A stretch of 54,232 nucleotides of DNA from an uncultured Flavobacteriales bacterium (lineage in GTDB: Bacteria > Bacteroidota > Bacteroidia > Flavobacteriales_E > Vicingaceae): positions 1 to 54,232 of the forward strand of contig CAJWVX010000004.1 of assembly GCA_913048175.1 (NCBI GenBank), read 5' to 3'. A program made the position numbers and the translations under genes. Positions 10,889 through 34,995 of the stretch are shown in pieces (the first letter of the stretch is position 1; each line of letters begins with the position of its first letter). A model generated the notes under the pieces. It was not told where the DNA came from and ran no database searches. It saw only the letters and a program-made list of their open reading frames with translations.

Positions 10889-11551
10889 TTAATCAATCTT
10901 GAATTCTTTCCCAGTAATAGTTCTTACAATTTCACCTAAATAGACTTTAAGCTTAATTACATATTCTGGTGATGAAAATTGCTCTTTTATCACCGACTCT
11001 TTGTAATAAACCAATCTATATCCAACCCCTGTTCCTATACCAACCCATCGAACTATCTTATAATCAATTAACATTGCTGGTTCATAAGATAGAACTGTAC
11101 TTTTTTGAAGCTGAATCTTTTTCCCTTCAAAATTTGTAAACCGATAGTTTGCTGATCCAAAGCCTAATTGAGTTGATAAACTAAATTCCCAACGTTTTGA
11201 ATTATGAAAAACATATTCAAGGTATGGTGAAAAATAAAAGTATTCCAAATCAACAGGAACTTCCTCACCACTTATATTAGTAGTTGTTGTTTCTATAGGA
11301 ACCAACATCTGATTAATTCCTAAACCAACTTTAAATTTCCTTCGAAAATTTAATCCAACTTTTACTCCAACCGTTTTAAGAGTGTTATCACGAATAAATG
11401 AAAATCGATTATCAAATTTGACATCTAATTTTGGTTTAGAGTTAAAACTTTTACTAAATTCTTGTTCAAATAACAAATCCTTTTTTTGTAGTTCTTGACA
11501 AATAAAAGGGTTGAAATAAAAAAAAAGAAAACCAAAACATAGAAATCTCAT
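10889..11551 (-). CDS. Predicted outer-membrane beta-barrel protein, unknown function
   Basis: A 220-residue protein that I do not recognise beyond its fold class. A hydrophobic signal segment (MRFLCFGFLFFYFNPFIC) is followed by repeated short amphipathic strands such as KVGLNFRRKFKVGLGINQML and EYFYFSPYLEYVFHN, with a late GIGTGVGYRLVYY strand. This looks like a small 8-10-stranded barrel. It begins 5 nt after the stop of the small CxxC membrane protein gene, so it probably shares that transcript, which also follows the SCO gene. There is no evidence that it takes part in respiration. Confidence 0.65.
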   Translation of the reverse strand: MRFLCFGFLFFYFNPFICQELQKKDLLFEQEFSKSFNSKPKLDVKFDNRFSFIRDNTLKTVGVKVGLNFRRKFKVGLGINQMLVPIETTTTNISGEEVPVDLEYFYFSPYLEYVFHNSKRWEFSLSTQLGFGSANYRFTNFEGKKIQLQKSTVLSYEPAMLIDYKIVRWVGIGTGVGYRLVYYKESVIKEQFSSPEYVIKLKVYLGEIVRTITGKEFKID

Positions 11552-33190: not shown

Positions 33191-34309
33191 ATGGAAAATT
33201 TCGTTGTTTCTGCAAGAAAATATAGACCTACAACATTTGATTCTGTTGTTGGGCAACTTTCTATTACCTCTACTTTAAAAAATGCGATAAAGAACAACCA
33301 TCTTGCACAAGCATTTTTATTTTGTGGCCCCAGAGGTGTTGGAAAAACAACTTGTGCTAGAATCTTAGCCAAAACAATTAATTGCTTTAATGTTAAAGAA
33401 AATATAGAAGCCTGTAACGAGTGTGAATCTTGTGTATCTTTTGATGAAGGTAGATCTTTAAATATTCAAGAATTAGATGGTGCTTCTAATAACGGTGTTG
33501 ATGAAATAAGAAACTTAATTGATCAAGTTCGTTTTGCACCTCAACTAGGAAGTCATAAGATTTATATCATTGATGAAGTCCATATGTTATCTCAGGCAGC
33601 TTTTAATGCTTTTCTTAAAACGTTAGAAGAACCTCCTAAGCATGCTATTTTTATTTTAGCAACTACAGAAAGACATAAAATTATTCCTACTATACTTTCT
33701 AGATGTCAGATTTTTGATTTTAATAGAATTCAGATTGATGATATCTCTAAGCATTTGACACATATTGCTGATCAAGAAAAAGTAAAAGCAGAACCAGACG
33801 GGTTACACATTATTAGTCAGAAAGCAGATGGAGCATTAAGAGATGCCCTTTCTATGTTTGATCAGATTGTTAGTTTTTCTGGAGGAACTATTACTTATGA
33901 AGATGTTATTGAGAATTTAAATATCTTAGATTACGATTACTATTTTAAGGTAACTAATTCTATTTTAACTAACAATATTGCGGATTCACTATTGTTATTT
34001 AATGAAGTGTTGAATAATGGATTTGATGGACATAACTTTATTAATGGTTTAGCCGAACATTTAAGAAACCTATTGGTTTGTCAGGATGAAAAAACTGTTC
34101 AACTGTTAGAAGTTGGAGCGACCATTAAAGAAAAGTATATTACCCAAGCAAAAGCGAGTAATACTGGACAACTCATATCATTTTTAAGTATTGCAAGCAC
34201 AGCAGACACCAAGTACAAAGCTAGCAAGAACCAACGACTGCTTGTCGAGGTTATGTTAATGCAACTTTGTTCTATAGAAGATAATACTTCTCAAAAAAAA
34301 AAGCCCTAA
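33191..34309 (+). CDS. dnaX: DNA polymerase III subunit gamma (zero-frame product of dnaX)
   Basis: A 372-residue clamp-loader ATPase. The ATG at 33191 gives MENFVVSARKYRPTTFDSVV, the standard DnaX start. Walker A is FCGPRGVGKTTCARILA (about 46-62), followed by the zinc module (Cys in INCFNV, ACNECESC), Walker B DEVHMLSQAAFNAFLKTLEE and sensor I ATTERHKIIPTILSRCQ. Domain III (collar, for pentamer assembly) runs to about residue 365. The frame reads through ten A (34293-34302) and stops two codons later, so this product lacks all tau-specific parts. The tau C-terminal part continues intact in the -1 frame. The length resembles a gamma-type product formed by stopping at the collar end. Confidence 0.93.
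   Translation: MENFVVSARKYRPTTFDSVVGQLSITSTLKNAIKNNHLAQAFLFCGPRGVGKTTCARILAKTINCFNVKENIEACNECESCVSFDEGRSLNIQELDGASNNGVDEIRNLIDQVRFAPQLGSHKIYIIDEVHMLSQAAFNAFLKTLEEPPKHAIFILATTERHKIIPTILSRCQIFDFNRIQIDDISKHLTHIADQEKVKAEPDGLHIISQKADGALRDALSMFDQIVSFSGGTITYEDVIENLNILDYDYYFKVTNSILTNNIADSLLLFNEVLNNGFDGHNFINGLAEHLRNLLVCQDEKTVQLLEVGATIKEKYITQAKASNTGQLISFLSIASTADTKYKASKNQRLLVEVMLMQLCSIEDNTSQKKKP
34293..34302 (+). other. A10 slippery run at the gamma/tau junction of dnaX
   Basis: Ten consecutive A after TCTC, at the end of DnaX domain III. One added A (or a -1 ribosomal shift on AAA AAA AAG) moves reading into the tau frame without meeting a stop. Two small hairpins follow: CCTTTT/AAAAGG (34318-34334) and GGACT/AGTCC (34336-34349). 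Known parallels are the E. coli A AAA AAG shift and polymerase slippage on the A run of Thermus dnaX. Confidence 0.6.
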
Positions 34310-34995
34310 TTAATCTACCTTTTAATCCAAAAGGCGGACTAATAAGTCCAAAAAAAGAGCAAAGTAAAAATCCAGCTTTAGATGCTGCAATAAAAAGTTC
34401 TGCAACAAACTATAAGATTCCCGCTGCTGAGCCAAGTCCAGTTAATGAACCGACATCATTAATGCCTAAATCTTTACAAAAGGTAAGTGAAGACAATAAA
34501 CCAAGTGGCCCTCCAAAACTAAAACGTAGTTCCTCTGGGTCTTTAACAGGATCAATATCTATTAATCCTACTGTAAAAACTAAAGAAGAAAAAAAGGAAG
34601 AAGAAAAGGAAGTTAGTTACAGACCTACTGAAGAGTTTACGTCTAGTAGATACATAGAAGTTATTAAAAGATTTAGACTTGATTTAAAGGAAAAAGGTAA
34701 AGATAGTTTAGCAAGTATCTTTGATTCTACGCCCGAACTAAAAGAAAAAACCATTCATATTTTAATAGAGAACAAAGCTTTAGAGGATGAATTTCTTGCA
34801 ACCAAATCTGATTTCTTAACATACATAAGAAAAGAACTCGCAAACTACACCGTTCAGGTAGAAACTGAAATAAACAAAGACAAAAAACTTAAAAAAGCTT
34901 ATACTCCTCAAGAGAAATTTGTTAAAATGACTGATAAAAATCCATATCTAAATGAACTTGCTAAAAAGTTGGATATGGATGTAGGATATGCTTAA
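34310..34995 (+). CDS. dnaX: Tau-specific C-terminal part of dnaX, in the -1 frame
   Basis: Joined to the zero frame by one extra A in the run at 34293-34302, dnaX encodes a tau of about 601 residues. This part reads ALINLPFNPKGGLISPKK right after the A run, with no stop until 34995. It has a Pro/Ser/Lys-rich linker (about 120 residues), then a folded C-terminal domain (RYIEVIKRFRLDLKEKGKDS, LATKSDFLTYIRKELANYTV, DKNPYLNELAKKLDMDVGY) as found at the end of Bacteroidota DnaX. An isolated start at an internal ATG (34462) is possible but would waste the conserved linker before it. The conserved open frame directly behind the A run is the main evidence that tau is made by slippage. Confidence 0.8.

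Follow-up and report, generated by a model that had tools for sequence, protein, structure and literature searches.

In Thermus thermophilus both gamma and tau are obtained from one dnaX gene by transcriptional slippage on a run of nine A's (PMC1088944, PMC5009743), and in Escherichia coli a -1 ribosomal frameshift on the heptamer A_AAA_AAG of dnaX yields gamma (PMC5009743). A dnaX made of two ORFs was reported as a new structural type in the GeneTack survey of Antonov et al. (2013; PMC3711429), and in the passages of that survey drawn on here it comprises 17 genes, all with a -1 shift and nine of them with A10. Transcriptional realignment was proposed there for the two-ORF dnaX, and opposite shift directions among homologues were put forward as a mark of transcription-level events.

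Here we analyse a split dnaX in a 54,232-nt stretch of DNA, referred to as the window. Since a two-ORF dnaX with A10 was already reported in 2013, the window gene belongs to a known kind. The first-pass annotation had described its polarity as reversed from that of E. coli; this holds for the window gene, in which gamma is templated, but not as a novelty, such genes having been on record since the survey of Antonov et al. We give a probability of about 0.85 to the reading that this is a working dnaX whose A10 allows both gamma and tau to be made through transcriptional slippage (programmed transcriptional realignment).

Structure of the dnaX locus

The proposed division of the gene into a gamma and a tau part at A10 is confirmed. 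Across the junction the zero frame reads CAA AAA AAA AAG CCC TAA and stops two codons past the run, where domain III ends; upstream of this it matches PF13177, PF22608 and PF12169 of Pfam (DnaX domains I-III) and positions 1-370 of the 614 in NCBIfam NF011531. The frame said to code for the linker and the tau C-terminal domain is indeed open for 231 codons from the run to a stop at 34993-34995, and NF011531 again matches it, over positions 401-613 (E=6e-20); a Pfam search with this part gave no match. The two frames are joined by one extra A or by two fewer, and codon reading agrees with the 601-residue tau that had been given for one extra A. Coordinates are collected in Table 1. The A10 is the longest run of A or T anywhere in the window; an A9 at 11518-11526 falls within a minus-strand ORF (T9 on the coding strand). 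The neighbours of dnaX are genes for NusA, RimP and ribosomal L9 on the opposite strand, and genes for an M16 peptidase, S16 and RimM downstream.

Table 1. Features of the split dnaX gene in the window
Feature	Position	Strand	Basis
dnaX, whole split gene	33191-34995	+	zero frame and -1 frame joined at A10
dnaX zero frame, gamma-type product of 372 aa, DnaX domains I-III (AAA+ clamp-loader ATPase and collar)	33191-34309	+	reading frame, Pfam and NCBIfam matches
A10, proposed slippage run	34293-34302	+	sequence; run conserved in family
TAATTAA, compact stop module shutting the zero frame (TAA 34307-34309) and the +1 frame (TAA 34311-34313), with -1 alone open	34307-34313	+	codon counting
Linker and C-terminal domain specific to tau, open in the -1 frame over 231 codons, then a stop	34300-34995	+	open frame, NCBIfam match, purifying selection
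Two small RNA hairpins, probably outside the mechanism	34318-34349 (34318-34334; 34336-34349)	+	folding; not conserved among relatives

Distribution of the A run and of the tau frame

The family set consisted of 46 genomes, the same 46 being returned by an order-level search. A dnaX match was present in 41 of them and was cut by a contig end in one, which left 40 readable loci. Domain III is closed by a run of A9-A11 in all 40 (A10 in 37, A9 in two and A11 in one), in split and unsplit genes alike, and the most distant locus, L045, has an A9 in another codon phase. The gene is split in 10 of the 40, namely G000, G012 and G004 of the window's genus, G042, G045 and five of the six loci of genus g10, and on the family tree the split state needs five changes, of which four are forced by well-supported branches. 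Programmed slippage making gamma and tau had been suggested as a possibility in the first-pass annotation, with a conserved A9-A11 run and an out-of-frame tau in related genomes as the check; this is the pattern found in the family, and it lends support to the suggestion.

The wider survey comprised 308 distinct dnaX loci, L290 and L293 having been left out as repeats of L128 and L151. The class sample of 396 genomes gave 389 matches, and all of the best 150 of these were examined. To these were added 80 named loci, the best 80 of a longer match list, and a phylum sample of 69 loci, 11 of which repeat earlier genomes; 20 of the phylum loci were fetched for a short open frame and so picked because split (all 20 are), and 20 others were hand-chosen from other classes. 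The run was defined as the longest A run between 60 nt upstream and 250 nt downstream of the point where the DnaX I-III match ends, a choice that favours finding one. Loci without a run were set aside, whether open (40), stopped (4) or cut off (3), as were three run-bearing loci that were cut off, one partial and one odd locus.

The remaining 256 of the 308 loci have an A9-A13 at the end of domain III and a single open tau frame. The run is A10 in 202, A9 in 32, A11 in 20, and A12 and A13 in one each, and it lies in codon phase 1 in 177 loci, phase 2 in 44 and phase 0 in 35. Tau lies in the zero frame in 175 loci, in the -1 frame in 76 and in the +1 frame in five. The 81 split genes among 256 are a biased rate because some loci were chosen for being split; less biased rates are those of the family (10 of 40) and of a subset (56 of 212) drawn from 250 loci (172, being 41 from the family and 131 others among the best 150 of 389, plus the 80 named loci less two duplicates), from which 38 with no run of at least nine A's, or cut short or partial, were left out. 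Both non-tau frames are shut within eight codons in 234 of the 256 loci, as against a fraction of 0.259 in codon-shuffled tau parts and, for the 212-gene subset, 0.257 at positions elsewhere in these ORFs. No A9 or longer run occurs in the 280,866 nt of upstream dnaX parts of the 256 run-bearing loci, and ten occur in 153,344 nt of downstream parts.

A FastTree phylogeny of the 256 loci calls for 31 changes of the split label, and starred branches force 21 of them, the exact number being unsure because of long branches. All three tau frames are found in genus g54 (five zero-frame, two minus-one and one plus-one, the last seen in one genome only); two frames occur in each of eight other genera, those with names being Aquimarina and, by record title, Chitinophaga. 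In genus g71 (family f52; L318, L320-L331 and L333) all 14 sampled genomes have a split A10 gene, so that a single-frame tau gene may be missing from the genus as a whole, which is well sampled.

Production of gamma and tau

What is conserved among these genes is the homopolymer; its codon phase, the next base (G, C or T), downstream folding and the direction of the shift all vary. For a -1 ribosomal shift on A_AAA_AAG the phase, the base and the direction all matter, and for polymerase slippage only the run does. Under transcriptional slippage A's would be gained or lost as RNA polymerase copies the run, and the mRNAs would carry A9, A10, A11 or other lengths. On mRNAs of templated length, or in the +1 frame, translation would halt at once in TAATTAA and give gamma, and an mRNA one A longer (or two shorter) would let ribosomes continue into tau. 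Because slippage would fill all frames, the occurrence of the run in all three codon phases and the 31 changes of the split state both fit it. The comparisons show the anatomy of the gene, the conserved run, the shut non-tau frames, switches of frame in both directions and selection on the tau part at the protein level; slippage itself, the presence of both products in the cell and the ratio between them are what we infer from them.

Ribosomal frameshifting could also be considered. It would act by a -1 shift on A_AAA_AAG with the E. coli roles reversed, so that unshifted ribosomes make gamma and shifted ones tau, and we regard it as an unlikely explanation of the gene, though one of some weight. 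The heptamer lies in the correct frame inside the window run, but is not retained by all relatives. The only lysine tRNA genes found are two copies with the UUU anticodon (30 hits, 29 over the cut-off, with 150 of 292 candidates scored in a genome that is 90% complete); this is the E. coli situation, which is said to favour ribosomal shifting. Reversed ribosomal dnaX candidates, for example in Chlorobium, are described in the part of a 2016 review used here (PMC5009743). In minus-one genes the run is most often followed by G (52 of 76), much of the excess coming from genus g71, which was picked because split; among the 175 zero-frame genes G follows in 53, C in 72 and T in 50. Against this, T (14) or C (10) follows the run in 24 of the 76 minus-one genes, and the run occupies all codon phases. 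The five relatives with tau in the +1 frame are out of reach of a -1 shift, which therefore cannot account for them.

The two hairpins that had been described after the run are present, with a folding z of -2.1, and could act as a stimulator of ribosomal shifting. They are, however, not a family feature: in the 70 nt after the run, mean z for 40 family loci is -0.74, and only five of the 40 (the window, L022, L026, L028 and L042) fall below -2, the sister genome G012 being at -0.2. No conserved stimulatory stem-loop was found by folding in these 40 loci. Moreover the first hairpin starts 14 nt past the heptamer, and the optimal spacing for such a structure is closer. The hairpins are thus probably outside the mechanism. 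Given its heptamer, and lysine tRNA genes found with the UUU anticodon only, the window dnaX may nevertheless receive some contribution from ribosomal shifting.

It is very unlikely that the two ORFs are translated independently, the second as a tau C-terminal domain free of gamma. Such a domain might start from the ATG at 34462 in ORF2, but no ATG, GTG or TTG precedes this one in the frame, and a start there would lose 54 codons. As it is also about 150 nt beyond the gamma stop, coupling of the overlap type is not available. The A run would moreover be needless, yet it is kept by relatives.

A homopolymer error of sequencing or assembly, hiding a gene with tau in one frame, had been named as the main alternative (a true A11) and is suggested by the draft state of the genome (3.5 Mb in 252 contigs), the error-prone nature of A runs and the splits in single genomes elsewhere in the survey, which could include errors; it is very unlikely, as the sister genome G012, another species whose gamma part is 94% identical, carries the same split and the same A10, and whole sampled clades are split (12 of 12 classified f19 loci, 8 of 8 f15 loci and the 14 sampled g71 genomes). 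The nearest unsplit relative, G001, also has an identical A10, and the single base that differs falls outside the run, the sequence after it being GCCC-TAATTAA in the window and GCCCATAATTAA in G001. TAATTAA shuts two frames in both genes, and it is because of this one base that a different frame is left open for tau. The split in the window thus looks genuine, and slippage on A10 is still the reading that we prefer.

Selection on the tau part

The dN/dS ratio of the tau part was estimated for 13 pairs of loci, three of which were saturated beyond use, with dS above 1 in most of the others. It was 0.14 between G000 and G012, which are both split and for which dS is saturated (2.4), 0.18 for L033/L039 with a dS of 0.75, and 0.03 in each of two split pairs from f19 (L107/L108 and L102/L115). 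The value for L009/L013 was 0.49, and L013 has a shorter tau frame. Judged by these ratios the tau part of split genes is under constraint at the protein level. Pseudogene decay of the tau part was considered as well, and is ruled out by the low dN/dS in split pairs together with clade-wide retention.

Loci without the run

In 40 of the 308 loci there is no run of A9 or longer and tau is simply open, and four others (L118, L231, L252 and L256) have a stop but no run. Loss of the run is commoner in GC-rich genes: it is absent from 16 of 37 loci with at least 50% GC and from 31 of 266 below 50%. Six Bacteroidaceae-like loci that were examined lack it (L175, L176, L211, L223, L228 and L249). Where GC-rich relatives do have the run, codon counts indicate that it is kept against codon usage: in 21 run-bearing loci with a gamma part of at least 50% GC there are 194 AAG and 157 AAA codons, and the gamma part of L255 has 17 AAG and no AAA lysine codons, yet A10 is present.

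L118 (G212, family f19) is split, with tau in another frame and no run of at least six A's near the junction, in contrast to the 12 other classified f19 loci, all with A10 or A11. In L231 and L256, both Bacteroidales MAGs, there is no A run; an in-frame TAG stands at the gamma end with the tau side open in the same frame, and the two share a stretch of about 35 nt (three differences). It is possible that UAG readthrough leads to tau in these two genes. L175, L211, L223 and L228 have at the same place a short G run followed by CGTAGC or CATAGC, with a -1-frame TAG directly after it, and this could possibly provide an alternative route to gamma; L176 and L249 have the G stretch and lack the TAG.

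Discussion

The repeated switching of the tau frame is the interesting part of this pattern. If slippage fills all frames, the frame in which tau is written in the DNA would matter little, and lineages could switch it repeatedly by gaining or losing a few bases within or beside the run, such switches being presumably nearly neutral. We think it likely that in much of Bacteroidota dnaX is indifferent to frame: a run of A9-A11 and a two-frame stop module would be kept, all three frames would be delivered by RNA polymerase, and the tau half would have drifted among the three frames on about twenty to thirty occasions or more, also inside a single genus, with neither product lost. The relatives provide a natural experiment in this respect, with the run at the same place and tau in three frames, sometimes within one genus. 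In the literature covered (titles, abstracts and a few passages) we found no account of repeated moves of tau among three frames around a kept run.

What might have been taken for a sequencing error thus appears to be a conserved device for expressing a core replication gene. A split dnaX may be annotated by gene finders as truncated or as a pseudogene. Whether gamma is needed is an old question, on which the recurrent retention of this device has a bearing.

As in E. coli, the window dnaX has an A_AAA_AAG heptamer within its run and two products, which in the window are predicted. E. coli obtains gamma by shifting, whereas in the relatives of the window there is no conserved stem-loop, and the phase of the run and the base after it vary; the polarity itself seems nearly indifferent, since tau occurs in all three frames relative to gamma. 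The likeness to Thermus, as far as the published passages describe it, lies in the A run and in the stops that follow soon after in both non-tau frames, and the difference lies in the templated frame, which is that of tau in Thermus and that of gamma in the window. The two-ORF genes of Antonov et al. (2013) come closest. These too have adjacent ORFs, an A10 run and a -1 shift for tau, and the features by which that type is described, DnaX I-III and the tau part in adjacent frames (-1), a conserved run of about ten A's and both directions of shift, are found here (76 minus-one and five plus-one genes in 256). The genera of that survey may partly overlap with ours. Unlike the set described there, in which all shifts are -1, the genes surveyed here also include tau in the +1 frame, close zero-frame and split relatives share the run, and the switching between them has been counted on a tree.
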